A DNA stretch of 62,028 bases. Origin: an uncultured beta proteobacterium (GTDB lineage Bacteria; Pseudomonadota; Gammaproteobacteria; Burkholderiales; Burkholderiaceae_C). Positions within the stretch are counted from its first letter, which is position 1. Each line of letters opens with the position of its first letter. The notes beneath the pieces are model-generated. The model saw nothing but the letters and a program-made list of their open reading frames with translations. It was not told where the DNA came from and did no database searches. Below are positions 27,643 to 45,567 of the stretch, one piece after another. The stretch covers positions 1 to 62,028 of the forward strand of contig CAIVLG010000215.1 of NCBI GenBank assembly GCA_903906695.1, read 5' to 3'. A program made the translations under genes and the position numbers.

Positions 27643-30576
27643 GTGATCGTTATCAGCTCCACTTTTGTCGCCGAACCCATGGGCACGCCGCTGGCTTATC
27701 TGCTGGCAGAGGCAGGTCTGGAGTCGGACCTTCAGTTCGCGCCCTATAACCAGGTGTTCCAGCAGTTATTGACACCCGGCAGCGAGTTTGACCGCAACCG
27801 CGACGGCATCAACATCGCGCTGATTCGGCTGGAAGATTTCGTGCGCGAGCAGGGTGAGCCGAACGTCGCCTGCCAGACCGTTGCCAGGATCGCTGACGAA
27901 CTCGCCGCCGCTCTGGAGAGTTTTGCTGCCGCCCGGAAAGGCACTGTGCTGCTGAGTCTGCTGGCGCCTTCCGCACACGTGCCGGAACTGGTTGCGCTGG
28001 CCATCGAGAAAGCTTCTGCAAAGCTGCTGGCGAGCGTCGCCAGCCAGGGGAACATCCAGCTTCTGAGCGACCAGGAGATTGATCGCGTCGCCAGTGCGGA
28101 TCGCTTTGATGCCAGGCGCGACGAGCTCGCCCACATTCCGTTTTCGGATGACTACTTTGCGGCATTGGCGCTGGCATTGACGCGCCGCATTCACGCCTTG
28201 CGGGTGCCTGCGGCCAAGGTGCTGGTGCTCGATTGCGACAATACGCTGTGGCGCGGTGTGGTGGGCGAAGACGGGGTCGACGGCATTGCACTGAGCGAGC
28301 CGTTCCTGGCGTTGCAGGAGTTCGCTGTGGCGCAGCAGCGCAAAGGCGTTCTGATCTGTCTGGCAAGCAAGAATTCCGAGGCTGATGTTTTGGATGTGCT
28401 GGATCGGCGCAAGGATATGAGGCTGCGCTTGAGCGACGTGGTGGCGCACCGCATCAATTGGTTGCCCAAGGCGGTCAACGTGCGATCACTGGCCGAAGAA
28501 CTCAACCTGGGGCTTGATGCCTTTGTGTTTCTGGATGACAACCCGATGGAGTGCGCCCAGATGCGCGCCGAGTTGCCCCAGGTGGTGACGCTGCAAGTGC
28601 CGGCGGAGGCCCAGATTGCAGGTTGGCTGCGCCACATCTGGAGTTTCGACAAGCTGGCCACCACCGAGGAAGACGCGACCCGTACTCAGATGTACCGTGA
28701 GAACGCGGCCCGGCGCTCGCTGGAGTCGAGCGTCAGTGACATTGGTGAATTTATGGCTGCACTGAGCCTTCAGGTCGACATTGAGCTGCCGGCTGAAGAC
28801 GAGTGGCCGCGCATAGAGCAACTCACGCAGCGTACCAACCAGTTCAATTTCACGACTCGCCGGCGCAGCGTGCAGGAGCTCAAGTCGCTCGTGGCGCAGG
28901 GCGCGGAAGTGCTTCGTGTGCGTGTCAGTGATCGCTTTGGAAATTACGGATTGGTGGGTGTTCTGATTGCACAGGCACGTGATCACGCTTGGGAAGTGGA
29001 CAGCTTCTTGTTGAGCTGCCGCGTGCTGGGACGCGGTGTTGAGCATGCCATGTTGCGTCGCTTGGGGGAGGGCGCCCGCGATCGCGGATTGGATGTGGTT
29101 AACCTGCAGGTGATCAGCACCGCCCGCAATGAGCCGGCTCGCGCTTTTGTCGACAGCGTGGCGGCCGCCTACGGTGAAACCCGCGCTGATGGCTGGCTTT
29201 ATCGTTTGCCGGTCGTGCAAGCGTTGCAGATCCAGCATCGACCGGGTCATGACCCGCAAGCGGTGCTGGAGGCGCGTCAGGCCGACGAGCGCAAGGGTGG
29301 CGCAAAATCCGTCTCTGCACCGGTGGCCCGCTCGGAGCGATATGACCGGTTGGCCGGCGTGCTGGTGTCGGGTGCGGCAGTGCTGCAGCAACTTGGCCGG
29401 CAGGCTCGCAGGTCGCGTTCGATGGAGGCGCCTGCCGTAGCGGCAGTCACGCCGATCGAAATCGCTCTGAAGGAATTGTGGGAAGAAGTGCTGTCGATTG
29501 ACAGTCTCGGTGTCGAGGATGACTACTTTGCACTCGGCGGAACCTCGTTGCAGTCGGTCAAATTGTTCAGCGAAATCGAGCGTCGCTTTGGCGTGCAGCT
29601 GCGCCTGACCACCATTCTTGCGGCACCGACGGTGCGCGCGCTGGCGCGCCTGATCCAGCCCACAAGTGCAGACACTCGCAGCGGCATCGTATTGCTGCGG
29701 CCGGGGCAGCACAAAAACCTGTTTCTGGTTCACGACGGACTGGGCGAAACGCTGCTCTATCTGAATCTGGCACGGTGTCTGCCGAGCGCCTTTTCGGTCT
29801 ATGGCATCGAACCCAGACGCCTGCCCGGCATTGCCATGGCGCATGCCACGATGCAAGACATGGCGGCCTACTATGTCGAACAGATTCGCTCGGTTCAGCC
29901 CCACGGTCCGTATCGCTTGGGTGGTATGTGTGCCGGTGGTGTGATCGCTTATGCGATGGCAGCGCGCCTGCAGACTTTGGGCGAGCACGTGGAAGTGGTC
30001 ATTATTCTCGACGGTGCGACACCGCAGGCGGCGCATCGGGCCGGCCGGATTGCCAGCGCGCGCCTGTCGCGCATGCGGGCTTTGATGCAGGGTGATCCCT
30101 CACAGGGTGTGGCGCTGAGCCGCATGCTGGTATTGGCAGCCTCTGCGCTGAGCAAGGTCTGGAATGCCTTGCGCTACGAGTCCTCGGCCTATCTGGCACG
30201 CATTTCTGCGCGATTGCGTTTTGGACTGCTGCAGCGACTGGTGCGCCATAACCAGCCCTGGCCGCAGTGGCTGCCGCAGTTGAAGGTGGCGCAAATCTAC
30301 ACTGCCTTGGAACAGCGTTATCAACCTCCAGCAGTACCCGATGTGCCGGTACTGCTGGTGCGCGCTTCGCAGGGCGTTGATGGTGACACGCCCTACAAGG
30401 AAATTTACAGCGACGACGATTTTGGCTGGCGCCAGGTTGCCGGCCAACTTGTGCTGGCAGATGTGGCAGGCGGTCACGCCAGCATGTTGCAGCAGGCCCA
30501 TGTCGATTCTCTGGCTAGCGCGCTGCTGGCGCAGTTGCCGGCCTGGTCCGAGTCATCAGTTGGGAGCAGAGCATGA
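27643..30576 (+). CDS. FkbH-ACP-thioesterase fusion (HAD-IIIC, PP-binding, Cys-type TE)
   Basis: 977 residues from GTG 27643; the frame is open upstream to 27538. Residues about 190-540 are FkbH-like HAD-IIIC with DCDNTLWRG (D197) and the C-terminal acetyltransferase-like part; FkbH enzymes take 1,3-bisphosphoglycerate and load a glyceryl unit on carrier-protein phosphopantetheine. Residues about 605-670 are a carrier protein with LGGTSLQS (Ser 635). Residues about 685-970 are an alpha/beta thioesterase in which GxSxG reads GMCAG (Cys 763), with His 945 in GGHASML. Loading, carrying and releasing are thus in one chain. A GT2 and a PPTase follow. Predicted role: glyceryl decoration of the EPS. 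Confidence 0.88.
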   Translation: MIVISSTFVAEPMGTPLAYLLAEAGLESDLQFAPYNQVFQQLLTPGSEFDRNRDGINIALIRLEDFVREQGEPNVACQTVARIADELAAALESFAAARKGTVLLSLLAPSAHVPELVALAIEKASAKLLASVASQGNIQLLSDQEIDRVASADRFDARRDELAHIPFSDDYFAALALALTRRIHALRVPAAKVLVLDCDNTLWRGVVGEDGVDGIALSEPFLALQEFAVAQQRKGVLICLASKNSEADVLDVLDRRKDMRLRLSDVVAHRINWLPKAVNVRSLAEELNLGLDAFVFLDDNPMECAQMRAELPQVVTLQVPAEAQIAGWLRHIWSFDKLATTEEDATRTQMYRENAARRSLESSVSDIGEFMAALSLQVDIELPAEDEWPRIEQLTQRTNQFNFTTRRRSVQELKSLVAQGAEVLRVRVSDRFGNYGLVGVLIAQARDHAWEVDSFLLSCRVLGRGVEHAMLRRLGEGARDRGLDVVNLQVISTARNEPARAFVDSVAAAYGETRADGWLYRLPVVQALQIQHRPGHDPQAVLEARQADERKGGAKSVSAPVARSERYDRLAGVLVSGAAVLQQLGRQARRSRSMEAPAVAAVTPIEIALKELWEEVLSIDSLGVEDDYFALGGTSLQSVKLFSEIERRFGVQLRLTTILAAPTVRALARLIQPTSADTRSGIVLLRPGQHKNLFLVHDGLGETLLYLNLARCLPSAFSVYGIEPRRLPGIAMAHATMQDMAAYYVEQIRSVQPHGPYRLGGMCAGGVIAYAMAARLQTLGEHVEVVIILDGATPQAAHRAGRIASARLSRMRALMQGDPSQGVALSRMLVLAASALSKVWNALRYESSAYLARISARLRFGLLQRLVRHNQPWPQWLPQLKVAQIYTALEQRYQPPAVPDVPVLLVRASQGVDGDTPYKEIYSDDDFGWRQVAGQLVLADVAGGHASMLQQAHVDSLASALLAQLPAWSESSVGSRA

Positions 30577-31589
30577 GCGACACCAACGGCAAACTGTTGC
30601 GGGTGGCAGTGGTGATCGTCACTTATCGCTCGGCGGCGTTGACACTGGATTGCCTGCGCTCGCTGCAGTCAGAGCGCTTGCATCCCGCCTACCAGCTCAG
30701 CGTGGTGGTTGTGGACAATGCCTCCGGTGACTATGCGGCGATCGCCGAAGTCATTGCGCGCGAAGGCTGGGGCGATTGGGTCGCACTGATTGAGGCGCCA
30801 CGCAATGGTGGCTTCGCGTACGGCAATAACGTCGGATTTGCGCACGCCGTGCAGCTTTGGAATCCGCATTACCTGCACATGCTCAATCCCGACACTCGCG
30901 TCAAGCCCGGCGCCGTCGGTGCCCTGCTGGCCTTTCTGGAACGCAACCCGTCGGTCGGCATTGCCGGCAGCAGTTTCGAGAATGGTGATGGCAGCGACTG
31001 GCCGATGGCGTTTCGCTTTCCGAGCGCGTTGAGCGAACTCGAATCCGGTCTGGGCCTGGGTCTGGTCTCGCGCCTGCTGCGCCGCTGGGTTGTTGCGCGC
31101 GTCATGGCGCCCAGGCCGCAGCAGATTGACTGGTGCGCCGGCGCATCGATGATGCTGAGGCGTTCCATGCTGGAGAGAATTGGCGGATTGGACGAGCGAT
31201 TCTTTCTCTACTATGAGGAGACCGAGTTCTGCTGGCGCGCACTCCAAGCGGGCTTTCAGACCTGGTATGTACCCGCCAGTCGGGTGATCCATATTGCCGG
31301 TCAGAGTACCGGGCTGACCGAGCGCGGCGCGGCGCCCAAGCGTCTACCTGACTATATGTTCGAATCAAGGCGGCGCTATTTTCTGCTGACCCTGGGCTTG
31401 CGCCAAGCCTGTCTGACCGATCTGCTGGCACTGGCAGCAGGCGCGCTGGGCCGGGCCAAACTGCTACTGCAGGGCCGACGCCACGAGATGGTTCCCGGTT
31501 ATCTGTCGGGGATCTGGCGCCACAGCGTGCTGCGAGCGAGAAACAGGTTGCTGGCAACACCGCTGACGCCGCAACTGCCGCCAGCCTGA
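30573..31589 (+). CDS. Glycosyltransferase family 2 (rhamnosyltransferase-like)
   Basis: 338 residues, overlapping the FkbH fusion by 4 bp (ATGA). N-terminal GT-A fold with VVIVTYRSAALTLDCLRSL, VVVDNASGD, the acceptor region GGFAYGNNVGFA and a metal motif in HMLNPDTRV. YYEETEFCWRAL near residue 215 is the WbbL-type ED-like base motif. It belongs to the GT2 group that often moves deoxyhexoses such as rhamnose. The tight coupling to the FkbH fusion hints that the sugar it adds may be the one that receives the acyl unit. Probably cytoplasmic and peripheral. Confidence 0.9.
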   Translation: MSDTNGKLLRVAVVIVTYRSAALTLDCLRSLQSERLHPAYQLSVVVVDNASGDYAAIAEVIAREGWGDWVALIEAPRNGGFAYGNNVGFAHAVQLWNPHYLHMLNPDTRVKPGAVGALLAFLERNPSVGIAGSSFENGDGSDWPMAFRFPSALSELESGLGLGLVSRLLRRWVVARVMAPRPQQIDWCAGASMMLRRSMLERIGGLDERFFLYYEETEFCWRALQAGFQTWYVPASRVIHIAGQSTGLTERGAAPKRLPDYMFESRRRYFLLTLGLRQACLTDLLALAAGALGRAKLLLQGRRHEMVPGYLSGIWRHSVLRARNRLLATPLTPQLPPA

Positions 31590-31592
31590 GTC

Positions 31593-32327
31593 GTGTTTGA
31601 CGGCACGACCCTTCTGGGTTCGATTGAAGTGCCGCCATATCTGGCGGTCAGTTCTGGTTTGCTGCGCGACGAGGCACCCGTGCTCACGCCGGGTGAGCAG
31701 GCGACGATTCGACCGATGTCTACAGCGCGTCTGGCGGAATTCGCCCAAGGTCGGATGCATGCGCGCATTGCCCTGACCCGACTGGGTCTGGCGAGCGCCA
31801 GCATCCCGGTGGCGGCGGACCGCTCGCCGGTCTGGCCGCAAGGCTTCGTCGGAAGCATCAGCCATGTCCCGCCAGACCCTGCGCGGAGACTGCCAGGCCA
31901 GGTGATTGCCGTTGCGGCACGCTCGGCCGATTGTGCTGGCCTGGGTGTGGATCTGGAGCGCATCGGAAGTCTGGCGCCAGAACACTGGTCAGCCTTCATG
32001 ACAAAGCGTGAACTGGCGTGGATCGCGACCCGTCCGGTGGTGCAGCGAAGTTGGCTTGCACATGGACTGTGGAGCGCCAAGGAGGCCGTCATGAAGGCAT
32101 TGTGCCGTCCACTGGAGCCACAGGATATCGAAGTCAGCATGGGTGAGGATACCGGTACATTTTTCGCCGAATGCTGTCTTGCCGATGTCGTTTCCGACAC
32201 GCACAGCGTCAGCCTGAACGGTTGGCTGACCCACACCGAAGGCTGGGTGGTGGCACTGGCAATCTTGCCGTCAACGCGGCTGCCGGTACCGGTTGCGCCA
32301 GCGTCGGAGCTTGGCAACAGAACCTGA
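31593..32327 (+). CDS. 4'-phosphopantetheinyl transferase (EntD/Sfp superfamily)
   Basis: 244 residues from a GTG start 3 bp after the glycosyltransferase stop. Motifs are complete: WPQGFVGSISH (81-91), GVDLER with D120 and E122, and WSAKEAVMKAL with E164. It transfers the phosphopantetheine arm from CoA to the carrier serine; the only visible client in the window is the ACP of the FkbH fusion two genes upstream. A dedicated PPTase in an EPS locus is unusual and supports real carrier-based chemistry. The 3' end overlaps the convergent GT25 gene by 57 bp. Confidence 0.92.
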   Translation: MFDGTTLLGSIEVPPYLAVSSGLLRDEAPVLTPGEQATIRPMSTARLAEFAQGRMHARIALTRLGLASASIPVAADRSPVWPQGFVGSISHVPPDPARRLPGQVIAVAARSADCAGLGVDLERIGSLAPEHWSAFMTKRELAWIATRPVVQRSWLAHGLWSAKEAVMKALCRPLEPQDIEVSMGEDTGTFFAECCLADVVSDTHSVSLNGWLTHTEGWVVALAILPSTRLPVPVAPASELGNRT

Positions 32328-33029
32328 TAAGCAGGCCATCCGATCGAACCAGCGCAAGGCTTGTACATCGGTCCTGGACGATCTCTGAAAACCCAGCGCA
32401 CTGCTGGACAGACAGGTCAGAACTTCAGGATGAGCTTGCCTGAACCAGCAGTAGGCGCCGTCGATATGCATGGGCCCACCGAGCGCGTCGCCGGGTGAGC
32501 GCTTGAGCATGGCATCCAGGTAAGCGACAAGCGCGTCAATATGTCTTCCATGGATCGCGATGAAGGCGCTGGTTCCAATCGCGCACTGCGGATCGACGGG
32601 CGTGCAGGGTTGCTCCGACCGCTGCAGCGGCTCAGCCAGAAAGTAGCTGCCGTAGAACATGCCCCACTGGCTTGCTTCAAGCCAGTGGGCAACGGCACTG
32701 AATCTGGCGACAAAGTCTTCGCAGAAATTCAGGTCATCTTCAAGAATCAGGACCGAAGCGGCGTGCTTGCGACTGGCATCGCGCAGCACCTCCAGATGAC
32801 TCATGAAACAGCCGCGAACGCCGGCCGTTGGAAAGCCGGCGGGAGCGTCGGGTTTGATGGCTTCAAAGAGCGTCAGACCGGGCGACCGCAAGCTCAGGCC
32901 GATGCGCCCCAACTGCTCTGCCATTTCGGCTCGCCGATCCGATCTGGAGCGCAGGTTGATGATGTAAGTTGCCCCAAAAAAGGAATTGATTTCTTTGCTG
33001 GCGCGTGGTGTGTCCCGACCTGGCTGCAT
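32271..33029 (-). CDS. Glycosyltransferase family 25 protein
   Basis: 252 residues. The family signature is clear: TYIINLRSRSDRRAEM at the start, GCFMSHLEVLRDA, and the metal motif in VLILEDDLNF. GT25 enzymes move galactose or related sugars in LPS and surface glycan assembly. The end overlaps the convergent PPTase gene by 57 bp. It lies 3 bp after the membrane GT2 gene and is likely co-transcribed with it. The final 50 residues are Arg/Ser-rich and may not be conserved. Confidence 0.88.
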   Translation of the reverse strand: MQPGRDTPRASKEINSFFGATYIINLRSRSDRRAEMAEQLGRIGLSLRSPGLTLFEAIKPDAPAGFPTAGVRGCFMSHLEVLRDASRKHAASVLILEDDLNFCEDFVARFSAVAHWLEASQWGMFYGSYFLAEPLQRSEQPCTPVDPQCAIGTSAFIAIHGRHIDALVAYLDAMLKRSPGDALGGPMHIDGAYCWFRQAHPEVLTCLSSSALGFQRSSRTDVQALRWFDRMACLSGSVAKLRRWRNRYRQPR

Positions 33030-33032
33030 CGC

Positions 33033-34226
33033 TCACTCTGACTTGCGTTTGGTGCGTACCCAGCCCGACCTTTTCTTCAGGAAATACGCCAGGTACACCG
33101 GCATCTTCCACAGCGCGTAGAGCGGCGTGCTCATGAGTTCTCTGGCGCTGAGCAGGTGGCGTCCAAAACCTTGCCATGCCAAGGCGATGGCCAGAATAAA
33201 ACACAGCGCCGAGACGCCGGACAACTGCGCTGCCATGCGCCACACGGGCCAAACCGCTGCCGCTGCGAGGCTGCCGACCACGGTTACTGCGAGTACCAAA
33301 AAATACAGGGCCGTGGGCGGGATCAGCAGATCCATGGTCAGCACGATCAAGGCCGGACTGCAGGACCTGATCGCTTTTGCCGCGAGGCCGGGTAGTTCCT
33401 CGGTCAGGGTGGCAAGGTGGCCGTGTTCCCAGCGTGACTTTTGCACTTTGGCCACGCCCGTATCGACCGGGAAGGAACTGCTGACCCGGACCTGGGGCAA
33501 AAATTGCGGCGCGTGTCCTGCAACAGCCAGATCAATCCCGAGCTTCATGTCCTCGGTGATGTGACCGGTGGCCAGTTTGGCGGTCGACATCAGCGACCAG
33601 GGCAGCGCCATGCCAGTGCCCATCAGGTGGCAGGCCTTGCCCAATCGAAACGATCCCAGCGGTCGCACCAGATTTTTCATCACCATGGCGAATTCAAGCA
33701 CCCTGAGTTTGAGACCGGCACCGCTTGGGGCGCTCATCAGGTTGAGCATTTGCACTGGCTTGGCGCTGGCGCGGCAGTGTTGTGCAATGCAGGTTACGGC
33801 ACCCTCGGAGACGAGGCAGTCTGCGTCCACCACCAACACCACGTCGGGCGGGTCGGCACGCAGATGATCGACACCGAAGGCCAGTGCGTAGCCCTTGCCG
33901 CGAAGCTGCGCATCGTGACGCTCGATGACCTCGGCCCCGGCCGAGCGCGCCAGTTCGGCTGTGTCGTCGTCGCAGTTGTCGGCGATCACCAGCAGGCGAT
34001 CACGTGGGCCCAGTTGAGACTTCAGACATTCAATCGTCGGCAGCAGATTGACAGATTCGTTGTGTGCCGGCACCAGAATGGCCGTGCGTACTGGAGGCGC
34101 CCCGCAATCCGTGAAACCGGCGTCCTCGCCGCGCCCTCCTGCCGACGCGGCCAGGGTCAGAATCAATAGAGACAGGGCTGGCAGCGCGATCGGGACCAGC
34201 GCCAGGGCCAGCAGAAGTTCAATCAT
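33033..34226 (-). CDS. Membrane glycosyltransferase family 2 with processive-type motifs
   Basis: 397 residues from the ATG at 34226 (MIELLLALALVPIALPALS); an in-frame codon at 34265 lies in poorer sequence. One N-terminal helix, a GT2 catalytic domain and about three C-terminal helices. Motifs: AILVPAHNES, VDADC, HITEDMKLGIDLA and VQKSRWEHGH, i.e. D, DxD, TED and QxxRW as in PgaC/BcsA-like synthases. It may be an inverting enzyme that adds sugars to a lipid-linked chain, or processive. Shares the divergent region with the wzc-like gene. Confidence 0.88.
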   Translation of the reverse strand: MIELLLALALVPIALPALSLLILTLAASAGGRGEDAGFTDCGAPPVRTAILVPAHNESVNLLPTIECLKSQLGPRDRLLVIADNCDDDTAELARSAGAEVIERHDAQLRGKGYALAFGVDHLRADPPDVVLVVDADCLVSEGAVTCIAQHCRASAKPVQMLNLMSAPSGAGLKLRVLEFAMVMKNLVRPLGSFRLGKACHLMGTGMALPWSLMSTAKLATGHITEDMKLGIDLAVAGHAPQFLPQVRVSSSFPVDTGVAKVQKSRWEHGHLATLTEELPGLAAKAIRSCSPALIVLTMDLLIPPTALYFLVLAVTVVGSLAAAAVWPVWRMAAQLSGVSALCFILAIALAWQGFGRHLLSARELMSTPLYALWKMPVYLAYFLKKRSGWVRTKRKSE

Positions 34227-34378
34227 GTTTTGGTAGCGACGCCTCTCTGGACAAAACCGCCACACTCTGGTAACACTCGCAGGCGGTTCCCGCAGTGTAA
34301 TGGAGCTCGGGGCAACGCAGAGCAGATGGCGCCTAAGCTGGCGCGCCAGCCAATTTACAAAGAGTCAACCCAATCGAG
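34227..34378. promoter_or_regulatory. Divergent intergenic region, GT2 and Wzc-like genes
   Basis: 152 bp between two EPS operons. CACACTCTGGTAACAC at about 34261-34276 weakly resembles the CACACTTCTGTCAC site found ahead of the wza-like gene, with one base less in the spacer. No clear -35/-10 pair was assigned. Confidence 0.3.
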
Positions 34379-36517
34379 ATGGATACCAGTCAACTGCCAG
34401 GACGCGGCATCAGCCCGTTGCGCAGCCTGCGCACTCACTACCGGATCAGCATTGCGATCTGGCTGCTGGTGGTGCTGGCTGGTCTGCCGCTGGTCTGGAT
34501 CAAGGGGCAGAGTTACTACAGCGCTGAGTCGGTGTTTCAGGTCTCGCCCAACTACATGAAGATTCTTTCGACCGACAAGGAAGTCGAGTTGCAATCGAAT
34601 TCCCAGTATCGCGAATTTGTCAATCACCTCTCCAGCACCGTCAAACGTTACGACGTGGTACAGCGTGCCTTGAAGAAGTTGCGCGAGGCCAAGATCGACG
34701 TCCAACCCAAGGCCTTGAGCGAGCGAAAGTACATTGAGTTTTTGCAGAAGCAGGTCTCGGTGCGTGCCATTCCCGACACCTACATGGTGCGCATTGTGCT
34801 GGAAGGCGACAAGAAGGAATCGCTTGCTGAAATTGTCAATACCATCACAACCGCGTTTCTGGAGACGACCAAGAGCGAGCAGATCTTCGGATCGGTCGAG
34901 CGGGTTGAAGCACTGGAAGCCAATTCAAAGAGATTGCAGGACGAGATTACGCAACTTGAAGGGCAGCGCGTACAGCTCTCCGAACAGCTTGGCCTGACTA
35001 CTTTTGGCGACAATGTCGTCAATCCCTACGACAGCATGCTGTCCCAGGCGCGAGAGAAATTCACCAGCGCCTCGATCGAGCGTGCGCACGCTGAAGCCAC
35101 GCTGCAGGCGTTTCTGGTACAGCGGGAAACACCAACTTCGGTCGGGCGCTCGATTATGGAAATGCGCCTGCAGGACAACGGACTGCAGGCTTTGCGAAAC
35201 GAGGTGGTCAAGCGATCCGAAGAACTCGGGCGAACGGCTGCCGGACTGGAAGAGAAGCATCCGGCAAGAAAGCCGGCGCTGGCGGAATATGACGCCATCA
35301 ACAAGCGTCTTCAGAGCAGGGAAGCCGAATTCGAGCAGGTCGCCTTTGACAATGTGAAGACGCGGCTGACGGCATCGTTGCGCCAGACCAAGCAGGTTGA
35401 GACCGAGATTGAGGTCAAGCTGAAGAAGATCGAAGGGCAAGCTGCAGACTACGCCAGAAATTTCCAGAAGGCGATGCGTTTTACCAGCGATATTCGCAAA
35501 CGTGAGCAGGAGCAAAAAGAAGTCCGAGACCGTCTCAACTATCTGCAAAACGAAAGTGCCGCGATCGGCTTTGTGCGCCTGGTCACACCAGCGATGCCGG
35601 CCGAGATGCCGATGGGCGTCGGGAAAACCAAGTTGCTGCTGGCGCTGCTGGTAGCCGCCACGGTCTTGGCCTTGGTCGCCGCCATCGCGCTGGACATGGT
35701 TGATCGGCGCATCTACACCGTCAACGACGCTGAAAAGTTGATGGGCATTCCAGCGGCTGGATGGCAGTTGGAGAGTCATGATCTGGCATCCGAGATTTTT
35801 GCCAAGGAACAAACCCGACGATTCGCTTCGACCTTGATCCGCAGCAGGACCCGAACCGGGAAAAATGTATTTGCCTTTACCTCGGTCAAGACGGTCGGCA
35901 GCGCAACCGCTATCATTCTTGATGCCGCAGTGGTTGTGCGCCAACTGGGTCTGCGGGTACTGGTACTGGATGCCAACAGCTTTGCTCCCAGTCCTGTCTT
36001 CGATGCTCAGGTTCCTGGTCTGTCGGATTACCTGTCGGAGCGGGCCAATCTTGAGGAGATCGGGCAAACCGTTGTTCACGAGGGGCAAGAGCTGGAGGCC
36101 ATTGGCTTTGGCAGCCTGCTTGCAGGGGGTGTGCAGCGGCTCGACTTGTTCAAGCAAGCTGTCAGCCAGTGGTCGCAACAATATGATTTTGTCCTGATCG
36201 ATTTGCCGCCGGTTCTGCTGAGTGCGGATGCGGAACTGCTGATCGATGCACTGGGGCAGGTGTTCATGGTGCTTGAGGCGCAAGCCGTGAGCAAGGGAGA
36301 GGTGACCCGTGCCAAACGTGTACTGGAAAAATTGGACCCGGAGGCAGTGGGGCTTTTCGTGAGTGGCATTCCCGTCTTTCAGCAGGGCGGTTACATGAAG
36401 GAACTGATGGTCGAGATGCTGACCAAGGAAAGATTCAGCCGTTTCATGAGCTTGTCCAACCTGAGACTGCAATTGGAGTTGCTGCGTGTTCGCTGGGTGC
36501 AAAAGCGCAACAGATAG
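34379..36517 (+). CDS. Wzz/Wzc-like chain-length protein with degenerate tyrosine-kinase domain
   Basis: 712 residues. A Wzz-type N-terminus with membrane helices at about 22-42 and 418-442 flanks a long coiled-coil periplasmic region. The C-terminal BY-kinase-like ATPase domain (about 485-690) keeps a Walker B-like FVLIDLPPVLL, but at the P-loop position (about 498-512) it reads SVKTVGSATA instead of GxGKS/T, Walker A' is VLVLDAN, and the C-terminus has no tyrosine cluster. It should still set chain length and couple to the Wza-like exporter, without autophosphorylation. The polymerase gene follows directly. Confidence 0.88.
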   Translation: MDTSQLPGRGISPLRSLRTHYRISIAIWLLVVLAGLPLVWIKGQSYYSAESVFQVSPNYMKILSTDKEVELQSNSQYREFVNHLSSTVKRYDVVQRALKKLREAKIDVQPKALSERKYIEFLQKQVSVRAIPDTYMVRIVLEGDKKESLAEIVNTITTAFLETTKSEQIFGSVERVEALEANSKRLQDEITQLEGQRVQLSEQLGLTTFGDNVVNPYDSMLSQAREKFTSASIERAHAEATLQAFLVQRETPTSVGRSIMEMRLQDNGLQALRNEVVKRSEELGRTAAGLEEKHPARKPALAEYDAINKRLQSREAEFEQVAFDNVKTRLTASLRQTKQVETEIEVKLKKIEGQAADYARNFQKAMRFTSDIRKREQEQKEVRDRLNYLQNESAAIGFVRLVTPAMPAEMPMGVGKTKLLLALLVAATVLALVAAIALDMVDRRIYTVNDAEKLMGIPAAGWQLESHDLASEIFAKEQTRRFASTLIRSRTRTGKNVFAFTSVKTVGSATAIILDAAVVVRQLGLRVLVLDANSFAPSPVFDAQVPGLSDYLSERANLEEIGQTVVHEGQELEAIGFGSLLAGGVQRLDLFKQAVSQWSQQYDFVLIDLPPVLLSADAELLIDALGQVFMVLEAQAVSKGEVTRAKRVLEKLDPEAVGLFVSGIPVFQQGGYMKELMVEMLTKERFSRFMSLSNLRLQLELLRVRWVQKRNR

Positions 36518-37906
36518 ATGACCGAATACAGCGTCTTCATCGCGATGCTGGTCTCGATCATCGTGATCGTGAAGAAGGACATCGAGACCGCTTTTCTGCG
36601 CGTCTGGATTCCGTTCTTCTTACTTGTTCCCTTTATTTTCTGGGTTCACGTGCCTCTGGCAGCCGACTACAACTTTATGTCGGCAGCGGTCTTTCCGATC
36701 CTTTTCAGCCTGGTTCGTGACAAGGCCAAGGAAATTCGCATCGGTCCGATGGAAGCGCTGCTGTTGATGTATGTCGTGCTGCGCGTGGTCGCCGACTTTC
36801 TGGGGCGCGGCTATTCGGACGCGCAGCATTACGCGCACTACATGGTGAGCTCGGTCATCGGGCCGTTTTTGCTGGGCCGCTACATCATCAACAGTCGGCG
36901 CATGGACATCGAAACCGCGCGCAGCTTCGTGCTGATGTTTCTTTTGCTGTTCCCGGTGTTCCTGTACGAAGCCAAGTTCTGGGTCAGTCCGATCTACCAG
37001 CTGCTGTCTCCGCTGTTTCCAAACTCGTACAGTTCTGTTTCGATCCGCTATGGAATTGCGCGCACCGCCGGCACCTTCGAACATCCGATTCTGGCCTGCA
37101 TCATGATCGTTGCAGTCTATCGATTGCATCGCTGGTTGTCCTGGCAGGGAGTTTGGGAGCAGACGCAAGCGGGTTGGCTCGGATGGATTCAGAAGCAGTT
37201 GAAGCGATTTCCGTTTGACTTCAAGTATCAAATTTCGATCGTGTTGATCGTGATGGCCTTGATGACGATTTCGCGCGGTCCCTGGATCGGGGCCTTTGCC
37301 GGCGCGACCCTGACGATGGTGGGCAACGCCAAGGATCGCAAGAAGTGGCTGATCATCGTCGTTGTTGTGTTCCTGGTTGGCGGCATCGCCGGCCAGACAG
37401 CTCTGGACGCGTACATCACACCAAAGGAGGGTGAAATTCTCAGCGACGAAGCCCAAACCATGTTGTACCGCAAGGTGATGATTGAACAGTACAAGGAATT
37501 CCTGATGGCCAAATTTTGGACCGGCTGGGGCTTGACCACGGTACCAAAAATTCAGGGAATGGAATCGGTTGATAACGCCTTCTTTCTGATGGCCTTGCAG
37601 CATGGTGTGCTGGCACCAGCCATGTTCGCTTTGATCTTCGTCTACGCCATCATTTCGCAGGTCAAATTTGGGTTGGCCGCTGCACCTGGCCAGGCGCCGA
37701 TCGGTTTTACTTTTTCCGGCATCTTTTTGATGTGCTTCGTTGCCTTCTCCACCGTCTACATGGGGTCGCAGACCGAGCCGATGCTGTTCCTGTTACTGGG
37801 CTGGGGTGAAAGCATCAAGAACCGAAAAGAGGGGGCCGAAAACGGCACGGGTATTTCCACAGCGAAGACGCCAACTTCGTTTTCCTTCAGGCGTGTGTTG
37901 TATTAG
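36518..37906 (+). CDS. Wzy-like polysaccharide polymerase / O-antigen ligase-type membrane protein
   Basis: 462 residues, starting on the base after the wzc-like stop. About ten to eleven hydrophobic helices and a large periplasmic loop near RYGIARTAGTFEHPILACIMIV, typical of O-antigen ligase/Wzy proteins (a conserved Arg and His flanking the loop). It would join lipid-linked repeat units in the periplasm. Being next to the chain-length protein supports Wzy rather than ligase. The 3' end overlaps the convergent acyltransferase by 20 bp. Confidence 0.85.
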   Translation: MTEYSVFIAMLVSIIVIVKKDIETAFLRVWIPFFLLVPFIFWVHVPLAADYNFMSAAVFPILFSLVRDKAKEIRIGPMEALLLMYVVLRVVADFLGRGYSDAQHYAHYMVSSVIGPFLLGRYIINSRRMDIETARSFVLMFLLLFPVFLYEAKFWVSPIYQLLSPLFPNSYSSVSIRYGIARTAGTFEHPILACIMIVAVYRLHRWLSWQGVWEQTQAGWLGWIQKQLKRFPFDFKYQISIVLIVMALMTISRGPWIGAFAGATLTMVGNAKDRKKWLIIVVVVFLVGGIAGQTALDAYITPKEGEILSDEAQTMLYRKVMIEQYKEFLMAKFWTGWGLTTVPKIQGMESVDNAFFLMALQHGVLAPAMFALIFVYAIISQVKFGLAAAPGQAPIGFTFSGIFLMCFVAFSTVYMGSQTEPMLFLLLGWGESIKNRKEGAENGTGISTAKTPTSFSFRRVLY

Positions 37907-39078: not shown

Positions 39079-40152
39079 TTATTGCAGGACCTGCAGCAGG
39101 CGCGTTGTCGCATCGCTCCAGGAATAGCTGTGCGCCTTGGCGTAGGCGCGTTCGGAGCGCCGCCGCCAATCGCTCTCGGTCAGTCTGCAGGTGGTAACGA
39201 TGGCAGCGGCCATGTCCCCCGGTGACTCCTTGGCAACCAGCATTCCGGTGCCATCACCCAGTAGATCGCTTGCTGCGCCGATCGGAACCGCGATAACGGG
39301 CGTGCGGCAGGCCATGGCTTCAAGAATTGGCAGACCAAAGCTGTCCAGTCGCGAGCCGAACAGCCAGGCGTCGCAACGTGCATAGATGTCCCTGAGTTCG
39401 GTTTGTGCGGGACGGTAGAAGAACTCTGTACCGCTAGGCACTGGCACTTCGGCGCTGGGCTGGTCAGCGCCAAATGCCAAGACTTTGAGTTCCGGAATTT
39501 GCAGTCGCGCCAGTTCGCAGGCCTGGGTGCAGATGTCGGCACCCTTGATGTGGGCGACTGCATAAACGAAGCCAACCGTTGGCGTTTGCTGTTTGCTGCG
39601 CCAGGGTGCATTGAACTGCGTCAGATCCACGGCATTGGGGACGACCGTGATGCCGAGGTCACCGATTTCCTCCTCGATCGTGTTTTTTAGGTCGGACGAT
39701 ATGGCAATCTTCAAGTTGGGCAGGCGCAAGGCAGCTTGCACCTGGGCCGTGGCCTGCGGCGCCAGCCAGACCTCATAACCCTGAATCAAATGGACCTTGC
39801 GGCCTTTGGTGGAGGGCATGCGGTGCATCCACACCGCAGTTTCCCACCAGGTGGCGACGATGACGTCGGCGTCGGGCACGTCGCTGGCCTCGATTGCGCG
39901 TGGGCGCTCTAGGATCTTGTGCGGCACACCGGAGAGCTGGATGTGGCCCGGCTGTGTGACGCCATCGCTTCGCAGCGCTTGCCAGTCTCGCCTCATCAGG
40001 GCACGCAGTTTTTCGCGCCAACTCAGGCGATCCGGTGCGCAGGTCACCACCAGTACCTGGTGGCCGCGCCCCATCAGTTGCTGTGCATAGATAGCGACGA
40101 CGCGGTTGCCACCGGTGAGGTTGTCAGAAGGTAGTAAAAAGGTGATGCGCAT
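39079..40152 (-). CDS. Glycosyltransferase family 4 protein
   Basis: 357 residues, GT-B fold. N-terminal LLPSDNLTGGNRVVAIYAQQLMGRGHQV contains the glycine-rich acceptor loop; the C-terminal half shows DAWLFGSRLDSFGLPILEAMACRTPVIAV, the GT4 EX7E nucleotide-sugar motif. It adds one sugar to the lipid-linked repeat unit on the cytoplasmic side. Spacing to the flippase gene upstream is 4 bp. Confidence 0.9.
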   Translation of the reverse strand: MRITFLLPSDNLTGGNRVVAIYAQQLMGRGHQVLVVTCAPDRLSWREKLRALMRRDWQALRSDGVTQPGHIQLSGVPHKILERPRAIEASDVPDADVIVATWWETAVWMHRMPSTKGRKVHLIQGYEVWLAPQATAQVQAALRLPNLKIAISSDLKNTIEEEIGDLGITVVPNAVDLTQFNAPWRSKQQTPTVGFVYAVAHIKGADICTQACELARLQIPELKVLAFGADQPSAEVPVPSGTEFFYRPAQTELRDIYARCDAWLFGSRLDSFGLPILEAMACRTPVIAVPIGAASDLLGDGTGMLVAKESPGDMAAAIVTTCRLTESDWRRRSERAYAKAHSYSWSDATTRLLQVLQ

Positions 40153-40156
40153 GGTC

Positions 40157-41542
40157 TTACTTCAGAATGGTGCTCAGTGCCGAGTCCAGGGCCCAGCCGG
40201 CTAACACGCCGACGGCGAATGCCGGCAACCAGATCCGCTCCGACGCGAGAGTGAGCAGCTGATTGCGGTACTTGAACCAAAGTGCTACCGGCCAACTGGA
40301 AAACTGACTTACAACCACGGCGGCGATGGCCCCTCTCTCACCGGCGGCAGCGAAGCCGGCAGGGATCAGCAGTGCCAGGCTGATCGCTCGCACGCTGTTG
40401 CTGGCACTGACCCAGACCGGCTGCCCCTTGGCAAACATGAGTTGCTCCACCACCTGGTGCCGGATCGCCAGCAGGCCCAGGCCCAGCCATTGCAGCATCC
40501 ATCCTGCATTCTGGTAGCGATGGTCGTAAAGCAGATCAACTACCCAGTGTCCCGACATGAAGATGCCGCCCGCCATGACACCGAGAAAGGCATCCGCAAT
40601 CTGTTGGACGCGCGTATACACCCGCGCCGCACTTTCGCTATCACTGCGCAGGGCTTCGCTGAGCGTTGAAAAGATGATGTGTGCGTTCAGGCTGGCGTAG
40701 ACACTCATGACGGCCATCATCAAGGTGGTGGCAATCGAGAACACGCCAAAAGTCTCGGTCGTCAGGCTGCTGCCCAGAATCAGTTTTTCGCCATGGGCTG
40801 CCAGAAAGCCGATCACGGACGAGACAAATATCCACTTGCCAAAGCCAACGATCTCACCGGCGCAGGACCGGTCCCAGCCGGGCCGGCATGAGGGACCCGG
40901 CAAATACCAGTGGCTCATGGCGGTTCTGGCGGCGGCCGAAACCAGGGTGCCCGCCAGCAGGCTCCAAACGGATCGGGTTGCCAGTGCCAGTGCCAGGGTG
41001 ACGACCATTGCAATGACCTGGGTGATGACCTCCAGGCGTGTCAGATAGGCGACCTTGAGCTCGCGCTGCGCGATTGCCAGCTTCATGGACTCAAGACCCT
41101 GCAGCAGGGCACAGAGGCTGAAGACAGCAATCATGGGAGGAAGCCGGGGATCCGCATAAACAGTGCCGCTCTGGAAGTAGCCGATGCGGCCAGTCAGATG
41201 AAAGCCCAGCGCAATCAGCAGTACGACTGCGCACAGCAAGGCGCCCCGCATTAACTGTACCGACCAGGCGGTGCCCAAAAATTCGCCCTGCGTGCCGCGC
41301 TCGCTCTTGACCACGCTCTGCCAGACACCCAGATCGGAGAACATGACCAGCGCAAAGTACAGAGTGTTGACGGCTGCGACCAAGCCGAACGCCTCCGGTA
41401 CCAGGAGTCGGGTCAGGATCAGGTTGCTCAGCAGTCGCAGCGCCTGCGACGAGATGTTGCCGCCCACCAGCCAGCCGGTCGCCCGCAGCATGCGCTGCTT
41501 GAGGGAGAGGGGGGTGGCAGATGACGGGCTCACGGGTTCCAC
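40157..41542 (-). CDS. Wzx-like oligosaccharide flippase
   Basis: 461 residues with about twelve to fourteen hydrophobic helices. The start, KQRMLRATGWLVGGNISSQALRLLSNLILTRLLVPEAFGLVAAVNTLYFALVMFSDLG, is typical of polysaccharide-biosynthesis MATE-like flippases (MurJ/Wzx superfamily). It moves undecaprenyl-linked repeat units to the periplasm for the Wzy-like enzyme. It lies between two GT4 genes with 4-5 bp gaps. Confidence 0.92.
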   Translation of the reverse strand: MEPVSPSSATPLSLKQRMLRATGWLVGGNISSQALRLLSNLILTRLLVPEAFGLVAAVNTLYFALVMFSDLGVWQSVVKSERGTQGEFLGTAWSVQLMRGALLCAVVLLIALGFHLTGRIGYFQSGTVYADPRLPPMIAVFSLCALLQGLESMKLAIAQRELKVAYLTRLEVITQVIAMVVTLALALATRSVWSLLAGTLVSAAARTAMSHWYLPGPSCRPGWDRSCAGEIVGFGKWIFVSSVIGFLAAHGEKLILGSSLTTETFGVFSIATTLMMAVMSVYASLNAHIIFSTLSEALRSDSESAARVYTRVQQIADAFLGVMAGGIFMSGHWVVDLLYDHRYQNAGWMLQWLGLGLLAIRHQVVEQLMFAKGQPVWVSASNSVRAISLALLIPAGFAAAGERGAIAAVVVSQFSSWPVALWFKYRNQLLTLASERIWLPAFAVGVLAGWALDSALSTILK

Positions 41543-41547: not shown

Positions 41548-42777
41548 TCAGGACCCGGTCGCGTCAAATTGGGAAAAGATGCGACTCAATTTGGGCACAT
41601 TGACACCGAGGTCAAAGTCAGCCAGCACTTTGGCATGGGCTGCCTCGGCCAGCGATCGTCTCAATTCTGGTTCTTGAATCAAACGTCGCAGCTGCGTGGT
41701 CAGACTCGGGACATCGCCGGGCGTGGCCAGCAGTCCGGTGCGACCGTGCTCAATCAACTCAGGGATGCCGTTGACCGGCGTTGAGATGCAGGGTACGCCG
41801 CTGGACATGGCTTCCATCAGCACCACCGGAATGCCCTCTGCCAGACTGGGTAGGACAAAGACATCTGCACGCGCAAAATGGGCACGGACCGCCTCCTGAT
41901 TGAGCGCTCCGGTGAGATGAATCTGGGGTTCCAGCTGTAACCCCGCAATCGTCTGCTCAATGCGCGCGCGATCTGGTCCTTCACCGACCATGGTCAACGC
42001 GAAATCAAGGCCTTCATCGCGCAGCTGCGCGCAGGCCTGCACCAGCAGCACCTGCGCTTTGGCAGACGACAGGCGACCGACACACAGCAGTTCGACTCTG
42101 CGCTTGTTCATTGGGCGCACTGAGTAGGTAAATTGGGCCGGATCGATGCCCAGGCGGCAGACCTGCAACTTGGGCCAATTCTTGGGGTCACTGATGCGCA
42201 TCAATTGCCCCTTGGCAAATTGGCTGATACAGATCACGCTATCGGCCTCCTGCATCTTTAAAGGCAGGTGCTGGCCGAACACGTCGTCGAACTCGTCGGG
42301 GCCATGGATGGTGTAGGACAGATGGCAGTTCATGAGCTTCTTGACAAGCACACCCACCGTGGCGCCGACGCTGCCAAAGTGGACGTGCAGGAACTTCAGA
42401 TCGTGTTGACGCATCCAGCGTGCTACCAGAACGGCCTCGATGGCGTAGGCCAGACCGTAGAGCGGGCTACCGTCTTTGCCTAGTCGCGAGCCCAGCCAGA
42501 GAGTCCGCCATAGCGTTGTCGGCGATCTAACAGCCCAGTACAGTAGCGCCACCATTGCGCCGAGCGCGCCTTGCGCCTTGATGAAGAAAGTGTCTTGGGC
42601 TTCCTTTCTTTCGTAGGCTTCCATCGCATCGAGCGAGCGATCAGGTGGATTCACGGAGGCGGTGAAGATGGTGTGACCCAGGTCACGTAGACGCTGGACC
42701 TCGCGCAGAATGAAGGTGTGTGAAATGGCAGGGTAGCGGCTGACCAGATAGGCCATCGGGGGAGGGTGGGTGTTCAT
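41548..42777 (-). CDS. Glycosyltransferase family 4 protein
   Basis: 409 residues, GT-B fold. N-terminal YLVSRYPAISHTFILREVQRL is the pattern of colanic-acid-type GT4 enzymes (WcaL/AmsK-like). The C-terminal motif is VFVLPSLAEGIPVVLMEAMSSGVPCIS with the two conserved glutamates. The start overlaps the hexapeptide acetyltransferase gene by 4 bp (ATGA). A second in-frame ATG seven codons later is possible. Confidence 0.92.
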   Translation of the reverse strand: MNTHPPPMAYLVSRYPAISHTFILREVQRLRDLGHTIFTASVNPPDRSLDAMEAYERKEAQDTFFIKAQGALGAMVALLYWAVRSPTTLWRTLWLGSRLGKDGSPLYGLAYAIEAVLVARWMRQHDLKFLHVHFGSVGATVGVLVKKLMNCHLSYTIHGPDEFDDVFGQHLPLKMQEADSVICISQFAKGQLMRISDPKNWPKLQVCRLGIDPAQFTYSVRPMNKRRVELLCVGRLSSAKAQVLLVQACAQLRDEGLDFALTMVGEGPDRARIEQTIAGLQLEPQIHLTGALNQEAVRAHFARADVFVLPSLAEGIPVVLMEAMSSGVPCISTPVNGIPELIEHGRTGLLATPGDVPSLTTQLRRLIQEPELRRSLAEAAHAKVLADFDLGVNVPKLSRIFSQFDATGS

Positions 42778-43409
42778 GCTTGCTTCGCGGTCGGATCGAT
42801 TGAATTGGAGGTGGCCGGATGCAGAGCCTTGGCTGGCACGCCACCGATCACCTGATGTGCGGCGACCGCCTTGGTTACCACCGAGTTGGCGCCGACAACG
42901 CTGCTGTCTCCGATGCTGCTGCCCTTGAGAATTGTGGCGCCGCGGCCAATCCAGACATTGCGGCCAATGTCGATGGACGCGCTGACGTGACCGGAGGTGC
43001 GGATCGAATGGGCATCGAGTTTGTGATTGGCGTCACGCAGGCTCGCGTATTCACCGACCATGCAACCATCGCCCAGGGTGACACGCTCGAACGCCACAAT
43101 ATGCACGCCGCGTGACAAAACCACATCGTCGCCCAGGGTGATGACGCCGGCGCCCTGGGTCTCCAGATAGACACCGGGGTAAATCAGTGCATTGCGTCCG
43201 AGCCGGATATTGCGTGTGCCGTGGAGTTCGATCCGGCCCATGATGACATTGGATGAGTCGACGGGCTCGCCAATCGCTTCCTGAATGAGCGCCAGACTCC
43301 AGAGCCGTTGCCATTTGTCGAAGATCACGCGCTGGCACCAGGCCAGGGGCATCAGCGCTGCTACTAGCAACGCCTTGGTGCCCACAGCGATGCGAGGGGA
43401 AGCATTCAT
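42774..43409 (-). CDS. Left-handed beta-helix O-acetyltransferase (hexapeptide repeat)
   Basis: 211 residues from the ATG at 43409, overlapping the GT2 gene by 4 bp; the longer open frame to 43709 lies in that gene. From about residue 75 on the protein is made of hexapeptide turns and ends with the standard GRNVWIGRGATILKGSSIGDSSVVGANSVVTKAVAAHQVIGGVPAKAL. The N-terminus has one hydrophobic stretch (about 12-28). Family members (WcaF/WcaB-like) acetylate sugars of the repeat unit in the cytoplasm using acetyl-CoA. Confidence 0.9.
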   Translation of the reverse strand: MNASPRIAVGTKALLVAALMPLAWCQRVIFDKWQRLWSLALIQEAIGEPVDSSNVIMGRIELHGTRNIRLGRNALIYPGVYLETQGAGVITLGDDVVLSRGVHIVAFERVTLGDGCMVGEYASLRDANHKLDAHSIRTSGHVSASIDIGRNVWIGRGATILKGSSIGDSSVVGANSVVTKAVAAHQVIGGVPAKALHPATSNSIDPTAKQA

Positions 43410-44458
43410 TTCTTGTAATCGACCAGGGCAATTTCGAAGTGCTGCCGAACCGCCCGGCGCCACTTGAGCTGGCCGAAAAGCGCCGGTATCTTCTGGAAGT
43501 GAGCGTGCACCGCATACTGGGTGCACAAGATCCCTTGTCCCGGTGCCTTCCAGGCACAGCGACGCGCAGTACGGGCCACAAACAGGACCGCCAGCGCCAG
43601 CAAAATGAGGGCCAAGGTGGTGCTCAGCCATAGCGACACGGCGAACAATAGAGGCGACAGTACAAAGACGATTCCATGGCGAAAGTCGCGCCGCGCTTCG
43701 TGCTGCCAAAGGACATCGCCGCGCAGACGCATGCGCTGCGCCACCTCCGCATAGGCGATGCCGGAGCGGTAGGCCCGCAACCAGTAGGCGCGAAAGGAGT
43801 TGACCGCCAGATCATGCAGCGTCATAGGGGCATCGATGTGCTCGATCTGCCAGCCTGCGGCGCGCAGTCGAGCGCACATTTCAGGCTCCTCGCCGGCTTT
43901 CAGGGTGGGATCGAAACCATCCACCTGCGACAGCGCTGCACGTCGTACCAGAACGTCACCGCCAAAGTAGAGCGTGCGACCAGCCGGGTAGATCCAGTCG
44001 AGATCAAGCACCTTGGTGTAGATTGATTGTGAAGGTCTGGACTCACGTCGGTGACCCCAGACCGCGCACAACTTGGGCTCGCTCAGCGTCTGCAGTGCAC
44101 GCTGCACAAAGTCAGCGTGGAGTTCAGTGTCACCATCCAGAAATAGCACAAACTCGCCGCTGGCCGAGCGCCACCCCAGGTTGCGCGCCTTGGATGCACA
44201 GGGGCTGGCGTCGTCCAGGACGATGACGTTGGCAGCCAACGCCTGCGCCTTGACAACGCTTTGATCGGTGGAGCGGGAATCGACGTAGATCAGCTCGTAG
44301 CGTGTGCTGCCCCAGTCAGCCTGTTTCACGGAACGCAGGCAACGCTCAAGTCGTTCGCCCTCGTTACGGCCGATCACCACGACCGAGACGTTGATCCTGG
44401 AAAAATCCGAATTCGTGGAAGGATCCACATGAACTTCAGGAGAATTCTGATTACCCAT
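43406..44458 (-). CDS. Glycosyltransferase family 2 (ExoA-like) with C-terminal membrane helices
   Basis: 350 residues. GT-A domain with VSVVVIGRNEGERLERCLRSV, YVDSRSTDQSV and metal motif LDGDTELHADF; two hydrophobic helices near 275-315 anchor it. The start lies one base upstream of the stop region of the wza-like gene, and the end overlaps the acetyltransferase gene by 4 bp. Role: one step of repeat-unit assembly. Confidence 0.9.
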   Translation of the reverse strand: MGNQNSPEVHVDPSTNSDFSRINVSVVVIGRNEGERLERCLRSVKQADWGSTRYELIYVDSRSTDQSVVKAQALAANVIVLDDASPCASKARNLGWRSASGEFVLFLDGDTELHADFVQRALQTLSEPKLCAVWGHRRESRPSQSIYTKVLDLDWIYPAGRTLYFGGDVLVRRAALSQVDGFDPTLKAGEEPEMCARLRAAGWQIEHIDAPMTLHDLAVNSFRAYWLRAYRSGIAYAEVAQRMRLRGDVLWQHEARRDFRHGIVFVLSPLLFAVSLWLSTTLALILLALAVLFVARTARRCAWKAPGQGILCTQYAVHAHFQKIPALFGQLKWRRAVRQHFEIALVDYKK

Positions 44459-45496: not shown

Positions 45497-45567
45497 GAGC
45501 CCCGATGCTACTGAGCCGGCGCAGAACAGCGTGACAGAAGTGTGAACTGGCGCGAGCCTTTGAGGCC
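45497..45567 (-). promoter_or_regulatory. Upstream region of the export operon with 11-bp direct repeat
   Basis: On the plus strand GTGACA (45531-45536) and GTGAAC (45542-45547) are 11 bp apart; on the minus strand the site reads GTTCACACTTCTGTCAC. Twelve bases (45535-45546) match the site at 27517-27528, and 14 of 17 match the site at about 14930. A two-half-site, one-turn spacing is typical of PhoB/OmpR-type regulators, and one is encoded 1.1 kb upstream. Confidence 0.45.

Follow-up and report, generated by a model that had tools for sequence, protein, structure and literature searches.

Introduction

Acyl groups such as glycerate alter the properties of bacterial polysaccharides, and in the D-alanylation of teichoic acids by DltA, DltC and DltB a loading enzyme and a carrier protein decorate a surface polymer with the help of a membrane-bound O-acyltransferase (MBOAT). 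In the available portions of PMC7489565 and PMC8949500, FkbH proteins are described as loading glyceryl units from 1,3-bisphosphoglycerate. The use of a carrier-borne acyl group on a glycan has a precedent in the wfpC-wfpG genes of Flavobacterium psychrophilum, for which the authors predict, in the available part of PMC6519341, that a group borne by an acyl carrier protein (ACP) is destined for the O-polysaccharide; the machinery described here is different. Here we examine a window of 62,028 nucleotides from an uncultured betaproteobacterium (positions 1 to 62,028 of contig CAIVLG010000215.1, assembly GCA_903906695.1), in which a gene for an FkbH-ACP-thioesterase (TE) fusion is coupled to a glycosyltransferase family 2 (GT2) gene and a phosphopantetheinyl transferase (PPTase) gene within an exopolysaccharide (EPS) locus. 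With moderate confidence, we read this group of genes as a one-module acyl-decoration cassette of the EPS locus, in which glyceryl would be loaded by FkbH and transferred by a cysteine thioesterase (Cys-TE) to the sugar of the GT2.

Results

The fusion protein and its coupled genes

The fusion gene lies at 27643..30576 (+) and encodes 977 amino acids (aa) from GTG 27643, an assignment based on its matches to TIGR01686, PF00550 and PF00975, on the start that agrees with its orthologues, and on full-length relatives; the frame is open from a TTG at 27538, from which residues and domains are numbered here. Its FkbH loading domain, of the haloacid dehalogenase (HAD) IIIC type, occupies 28207..29163 (+) and matches TIGR01686 at aa 224-542 (E 9.9e-94; 314.1 bits, above the cut-off of 146.65), with the DCDNT motif at aa 232-236 (28231-28245) and the cysteine of the SCRV motif at 29017-29019; the sole solved structure matched by sequence in this half of the protein is 3slr. 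There follow a carrier domain at 29467..29655 (+; PF00550, aa 644-706, E 2.1e-15), whose phosphopantetheine serine is aa 670, and a type I thioesterase at 29716..30531 (+; PF00975, aa 727-998, E 4.4e-23, 83.1 bits against a cut-off of 26.4). An earlier note on this DNA, made from the sequence alone, had placed an FkbH domain with DCDNT, a carrier with an intact serine and a thioesterase in one chain, and all three domains are indeed there. Absent from that note is the nature of the thioesterase nucleophile, which is not serine but cysteine (aa 798, in GMCAGG; the motif GGMCAGG spans 29920-29940), completing a triad with Asp825 and His980.

Conservation of these residues was examined in an alignment of 25 proteins, 15 with a thioesterase and 10 of FkbH-ACP form; the L007 protein, which stops within the thioesterase, and the L012 protein, which is divided between two frames, were left out. 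The carrier serine is kept in all 25, as are the FkbH residues checked (both aspartates of DxD, the motif II serine, the lysine, the motif IV aspartate and the SCRV cysteine), the window included. Twelve of the 15 thioesterases have Cys-Asp-His and that of L018 has Ser-Asp-His. The FkbH domains of L018 and L019 carry DCDQT instead of DCDNT.

The GT2 gene (30573..31589, +; PF00535) is assigned as the partner of the fusion by its adjacency in betaproteobacteria and by the GT2 tree described below. Its ATG at 30573 sits within the 3' end of the fusion gene, giving an overlap of 4 bp, and its product has no relative of solved structure at E 0.001. The GTG of the PPTase gene (31593..32327, +) follows the GT2 stop by 3 bp, so that both spacings given in the earlier note hold. 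Sfp/EntD-like in character, the PPTase has two domains above cut-off, 4PPT_N (PF17837, E 3.8e-18) and ACPS (PF01648, E 5.1e-12), and its scores against the EntD, PptT and Npt equivalogs fall short of their thresholds.

In the genome that contains the window (4.42 Mb, 98.2% complete), PF00550 detects one carrier in the fusion and one in a 91-aa frame of contig C270, and PF01648 detects two PPTases, that of the window and a 149-aa frame on C270, the latter probably AcpS to judge by its size. With only these two carriers and two PPTases, the other PPTase being AcpS-sized, the carrier of the fusion and the PPTase of the window, about 1 kb apart, look unlike the fatty-acid pair. No condensation domain (PF00668) scores above cut-off genome-wide, the one match reaching 25.4 bits against 30.6; ketosynthases were not searched for genome-wide. 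These counts bear out the earlier statement that polyketide and peptide synthase genes are missing, and membership of the fusion in a polyketide synthase (PKS) or nonribosomal peptide synthetase (NRPS) cluster was rejected because no condensation domain of the genome passes the cut-off and the scanned window proteins include no such gene.

Distribution of the fusion and its gene context

A scan of contigs from other genomes kept 80 related loci (numbered with L), a few of which match the carrier-thioesterase part only. Sixteen of these are stand-alone FkbH-ACP-TE loci (L002-L014 and L018-L020), among them L007, which stops inside the thioesterase, and L012, which is spread over two frames. The two overlapping frames of the L012 gene (L012:10004-12944) reflect either a sequencing error or a genuine frameshift. 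Ten loci in betaproteobacterial metagenome-assembled genomes (MAGs) besides the window carry orthologues of the fusion, with complete thioesterases 65-78% identical, and these dispose of the idea that the fusion is an oddity of one genome. Full-length matches are nevertheless rare: among 399 genomes of its order and 299 of its phylum, with at most the best two candidates per genome considered, one was found in its own genome only.

The GT2 gene adjoins the fusion in all nine betaproteobacterial loci whose contig extends beyond the thioesterase. The PPTase gene is 3' of the GT2 in six of eight testable betaproteobacterial loci (seven of nine if the window is counted); the cassettes of L003 and L010 have no PPTase gene next to them, and none of the other loci tested yielded one. 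Coupling of the PPTase to the cassette is thus a betaproteobacterial trait. The description of this PPTase as dedicated fits a genome in which the only other one is AcpS-sized, and does not extend beyond the betaproteobacterial loci. Nine of the 16 stand-alone loci (L002, L003, L006, L009-L012, L019 and L020) contain at least two glycan genes. In four further loci (L004, L005, L008 and L013, of which L005 and L008 are on short contigs) the GT2 partner is the sole glycan gene, in L018 one is detected only through a Pfam polysaccharide-biosynthesis match, and in L007 and L014 none is recognised.

NRPS/PKS motifs occur in 44 of the 80 related loci, a lower bound since three motifs were used, and in none of the 16 stand-alone loci, one match in L007 being judged false. 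The possibility raised in the earlier note, that homologues would be found mainly with polyketide clusters, therefore applies to the FkbH family as such, which is still mainly an assembly-line family, and not to the stand-alone fusions.

Association with one GT2 family

Of 12 fusion-bearing genomes searched, ten have a GT2 homologue, the exceptions being the genomes of L018 and L019. When 38 GT2s were placed in a tree, the 22 module-associated sequences fell in a clade of 24 rows with support 100/98, and none of 500 shuffles of the labels was as clustered as the module-associated set; one of the two members of the clade without a module, L129, comes from a genome with a fusion elsewhere. In L011 and L132 some other genes stand between the GT2 and the module.

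The association extends to modules with other loaders. In the 42 genomes of the order of Leptolyngbya, 18 places match the carrier-thioesterase part, and a GT2 adjoins 11 of them: two of four FkbH-type places (L020 being one of the two, and another of the four lying at a contig edge) and nine of 14 non-FkbH places, where it is 64-71% identical to the Leptolyngbya GT2. Six of these nine, L214-L219, were examined at length. That the GT2 might be an indifferent backbone enzyme had been suggested by 15 genomes of cyanobacteria whose GT2 is close (at least 57%), 13 of which have no close ACP-TE, although some have distant ones. Together, the GT2 tree and this order-level search overturned that notion.

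Exchange with a hexapeptide-repeat acyltransferase

Cyanobacterial GT2s of the partner family that lack the module usually adjoin a hexapeptide-repeat acyltransferase, and we refer to this as the ACYLTRANSFERASE exchange. The nearest NCBIfam models of the hexapeptide protein are EpsC/CysE and WcaB, both matched under their cut-offs. Counting hexapeptide proteins that are more than 50% identical to a reference and within 1 kb of the GT2, the acyltransferase is found at 13 of 16 module-free loci and at none of 22 module-associated ones (Fisher p 1e-7, the rows not being independent). It is missing from the module-free loci L181, L187 and L188, the last two of which have the most distant GT2s. 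In three instances the GT2 and the hexapeptide protein form a single protein (L184:9161-10675, L185:9435-10997 and L186:9227-10822). A different, more distant hexapeptide protein lies 3.4 kb off in L020, and the window has a weak match 11 kb off.

The mutual exclusion of hexapeptide protein and module beside the GT2 suggests that one acyl donor system has been replaced by another, and hence that the thioesterase acts as an acyltransferase on whatever the GT2 handles. It lends independent support to the acylation of a sugar.

The thioesterase clade and its loaders

Removal of short pieces and duplicate loci from 83 thioesterase matches left 63 rows, the window among them, for a thioesterase tree in which the window falls in a 19-row Cys-TE clade with support 100/100. 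The loaders attached to this clade vary: FkbH in beta- and gammaproteobacteria and in Leptolyngbya-type cyanobacteria, in cyanobacteria also an adenylation (A) or condensation-adenylation (C-A) loader, as in L130-L133, and a condensation domain in L128, where a contig edge cuts it. Near the Cys-TE NRPS of the cyanobacterial L133, a frame at L133:14004-16529 fuses a chorismatase-like (FkbO/Hyg5) N-terminal domain to an AMP-binding domain. The thioesterases of L018 and L019 fall outside the Cys-TE clade, and by the thioesterase tree the FkbH-ACP-TE architecture thus arose more than once. Separate origins for the betaproteobacterial and cyanobacterial FkbH fusions were hinted at by the free trees and were not upheld in an approximately unbiased (AU) test, from which 23 loci were removed as long-branched or redundant, together with short matches; a single FkbH clade of both groups is not rejected (p-AU 0.559).

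A further arrangement is found in the Acidobacteria, where L027, L030, L043 and L044 encode in succession an FkbH-ACP protein, a family 4 glycosyltransferase (GT4) and a GT4-thioesterase fusion (L027:14734-16782, L030:4280-6343, L043:13463-15529 and L044:13388-15421) with a serine nucleophile in GHSMGA or GHSLGA; the assignments come from Pfam for both L043 proteins and the L044 GT4, and from homology for the others. These loci provide a second link between FkbH carrier, thioesterase and glycosyl transfer, although a proofreading role is also conceivable for such a thioesterase.

The EPS locus of the window

Polysaccharide genes span 32271-46614, and the setting in an EPS locus described in the earlier note is confirmed by Wzx, Wzy_C and OPX (outer-membrane polysaccharide export) matches above cut-off and by several glycosyltransferase genes, a Wzc-like protein being indicated by a weak match only. 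In order, the locus contains an EpsU-like GT2 gene (33033..34265, -; NF041865, 185.9 bits, under the cut-off of 700), a gene to which a Wzc-like label is tentatively given (34379..36517, +; a weak AAA_31 match under cut-off), a Wzy-like polymerase gene (36518..37906, +; Wzy_C, PF04932), a GT4 gene (39079..40152, -), a Wzx-like flippase gene (40157..41542, -; PF13440), a second GT4 gene (41548..42777, -), a GT2 gene (43406..44458, -) and the OPX gene (44459..45661, -; PF02563 and SLBB). A frame at 42774-43709 (-) with a C-terminal hexapeptide-repeat domain overlaps the GT2 gene at 43406, and its real start is probably further in. Three AT3-type membrane acyltransferase genes belong to the locus altogether, two of them on the opposite side of the cassette, and no MBOAT homologue of DltB was found among the 30 window proteins (15003-54035) scanned with Pfam. 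Also in the window, at 25468-27441 (-), is the gene for a 657-aa protein with no Pfam match and, by eye, a lipoprotein-like N-terminus; homologues 26-83% identical occur in beta- and gammaproteobacterial and cyanobacterial loci, with two copies in L234.

The Wzy-like protein of the window is matched in five other genomes of the 180 in the family, in four of them at 58-67%, and further EPS-core orthologues surround these four genes: OPX at 67-68% in two, and glycosyltransferases at 53-68% in all. Neither the fusion nor an orthologous GT2 was found in the stretches around the four (the G1139 contig being only 10 kb, and the rest of the genomes not having been searched this way); a GT2 in L234 matches at 34%. 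Because relatives thus have EPS-core orthologues with no cassette nearby, the cassette may be an add-on to an EPS backbone that is older than its decoration.

Discussion

The domain order, the intact catalytic residues, the coupling of the genes and its conservation, the acyltransferase exchange and the EPS-core orthologues of relatives with no cassette nearby are seen in the sequences; from them we infer the whole of the chemistry, the sugar that accepts the acid and the polymer to which it belongs. The PPTase encoded at 31593 would turn the carrier domain into its holo form, and, if the FkbH chemistry described in the available text of PMC7489565 and PMC8949500 applies, the carrier should receive its unit from 1,3-bisphosphoglycerate, FkbH taking the glyceryl, stripping the phosphate and placing D-glyceryl on the carrier. 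The glyceryl would then shift from the carrier to Cys798 of the thioesterase in a thioester-to-thioester exchange, and the Cys-TE would place it on the sugar added by the partner GT2, at a hydroxyl (or amine), so that one kind of residue in the EPS exported by Wzx/Wzy would bear a glycerate ester. The thioesterase would in this way occupy the place held elsewhere by the hexapeptide-type acyltransferase of the same GT2 family. An EPS acceptor is likely in the betaproteobacteria because of the locus, and is probably not general in view of the setting of L215-L218.

The proposal of the earlier note that glyceryl is transferred to an EPS sugar gains from the hexapeptide exchange, the invariant FkbH residues and the presence of glycan genes in 14 of the 16 stand-alone loci (the GT2 alone in four, and a Pfam match alone in L018), and in its strict EPS form it fares less well against the cyanobacterial pairs beside aromatic-precursor genes and the non-FkbH places lacking a GT2. 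Several observations weigh against the decoration of an EPS by such a cassette. At five of the 14 non-FkbH places in the order of Leptolyngbya, three of them in one genome, no GT2 lies closer than about 1.5 kb, and none is found in the longer loci L014, L130, L131 and L133. No EPS genes besides the GT2 are recognised in L214-L218, nor any other glycan gene in L004 and L013. In L215-L218, Cys-TE modules of A or C-A type and their GT2 lie beside genes for prephenate dehydrogenase, proteins like 4-hydroxyphenylpyruvate dioxygenase (HPPD) or hydroxymandelate synthase, and/or 3-deoxy-D-arabino-heptulosonate 7-phosphate (DAHP) synthase, neighbours that hint that these modules may load an aromatic acid. 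The exchange counts are phylogenetically non-independent, and L008 ends 30 bases beyond its GT2 match. The free trees do not group betaproteobacterial with cyanobacterial FkbH. Cysteine, which we had considered as a unique mark of these thioesterases, is present in several other, unrelated NRPS thioesterases and is by itself no proof of transfer, and in the alignment the thioesterases of L014 and L019 keep the cysteine while the catalytic aspartate and histidine are gone.

These observations can be read in other ways. The coupling of GT2 and module, the free hydroxyls of a glyceryl unit and the occurrence of some cassettes outside recognisable EPS loci would also suit a GT2 that glycosylates the carrier-bound glyceryl, with the Cys-TE moving glycosyl-glycerate to a polymer or lipid, so that glycerate would be a linker and not a terminal ester. 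We consider this unlikely, given that relatives of the GT2 pair with a hexapeptide acyltransferase, where there is no carrier-bound hydroxy acid to glycosylate. It is also rather unlikely that the product is a small secreted or membrane glycoconjugate, such as an acylated sugar or a glycolipid, for which the EPS locus is a mere genomic neighbourhood; the cyanobacterial cassettes beside aromatic-precursor genes without recognised EPS genes, and the EPS-core orthologues of relatives with no cassette nearby, speak for such a product, whereas in the window and in L002, L003, L006, L009-L012, L020 and L212 the cassette is accompanied by EPS genes besides the GT2.

Thioesterases of the PF00975 family are commonly hydrolytic, and one that hydrolyses the glyceryl carrier to free D-glycerate, or that proofreads, in a module left over from a lost assembly line, would be in keeping with the cysteines of other NRPS thioesterases and with the degenerate triads of L014 and L019. 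That the Cys/Ser-Asp-His triad is complete in 13 of the 15 aligned thioesterase-bearing proteins, 12 of them with cysteine, and that the GT2 adjoins the fusion in every testable betaproteobacterial locus, a link that a futile source of glycerate leaves unexplained, make this very unlikely. Highly improbable in our estimate is the same architecture with a loaded unit other than glyceryl, for example another phosphorylated acid: the substrate is identified from sequence only and relatives have different loaders, but 1,3-bisphosphoglycerate is the donor described for FkbH in the accessible parts of PMC7489565 and PMC8949500, and the FkbH motif residues checked are conserved.

More broadly, and tentatively, since we put it at somewhat less than an even chance, transfer of glyceryl to a sugar by the cassette may be one case of a general, exchangeable form of assembly-line glycan acylation, in which a loader (FkbH for glyceryl; A or C-A for amino or aromatic acids), a carrier and a Cys-TE are tied to one GT2 family and replace its hexapeptide acyltransferase. 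By swapping the loader, Proteobacteria and Cyanobacteria would be able to alter which acid a surface glycan bears, and the GT4-thioesterase fusion of the Acidobacteria would be a second construction of the same kind. If so, the loading chemistry of NRPS and PKS systems would offer a modular route for putting non-acetyl acids on glycans, with the loader predicting the acid, and the cassette would be a candidate route to glycerate on EPS. A loader-ACP-CysTE protein beside this GT2 would serve as a search signature for unmapped glycan decorations, and genome-mining tools would call for caution, as such genes may not yield a natural product.

Comparison with known systems

No description of an FkbH-ACP-Cys-TE module with a GT2 was found in the literature searched, most subscription journals lying beyond reach, and the cysteine nucleophile, the Cys-TE clade with its varying loaders, the clustering of the GT2s and the hexapeptide exchange are new here. 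Glycerate esters on a bacterial EPS are real chemistry in gellan, where the acid is reportedly L-glycerate (title of Kuo 1986); D-glycerate would be expected from FkbH, so the configuration may differ between gellan and the EPS of the window. The portions of the gellan literature searched name no enzyme for its glyceryl group.

The fusion resembles the FkbH glyceryl-ACP systems of FK520, of tetronates (for example Mad7/Mad8 of tetromadurin) and of the NRPS products vioprolide and cystomanamides, as far as the available accounts of these go, in its intact HAD motifs, adjacent carrier and presumed substrate. In those systems glyceryl enters a polyketide or peptide, whereas here no PKS or NRPS partner was found and a thioesterase and GT2 stand in a glycan locus. 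Its thioesterase shares a GxCxG nucleophile motif, and the transfer of a thioester from carrier to thioesterase, with ObiF and with AB3403 (4zxh), whose aligned motif is GGWCFGG. For ObiF, the accessible part of PMC6668435 describes the exchange onto cysteine as energy-neutral and a Cys-to-Ser mutant as yielding the hydrolysis product only; ObiF releases a beta-lactone, whereas an external sugar is the predicted nucleophile for the fusion. With wfpC-wfpG, in the available description, the cassette would have in common a dedicated carrier whose hydroxyacyl group is meant for one of the sugars in a Wzy-dependent glycan; there the group would be made by fatty-acid-like synthesis and placed on a nucleotide sugar by a PglD-like acyltransferase, in place of FkbH loading and a Cys-TE.

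The hexapeptide polysaccharide acyltransferases of WcaB/EpsC-like type take the same place beside the GT2 family, with an unrelated fold and a presumed dependence on acetyl-CoA. Like the Dlt system, the cassette combines a loader with a carrier, but the membrane MBOAT transferase of Dlt has its counterpart in a thioesterase acting in cis, and the GT2 coupling and the acyltransferase exchange together suggest that it may serve a carrier-dependent, Dlt-like acylation of a glycan.

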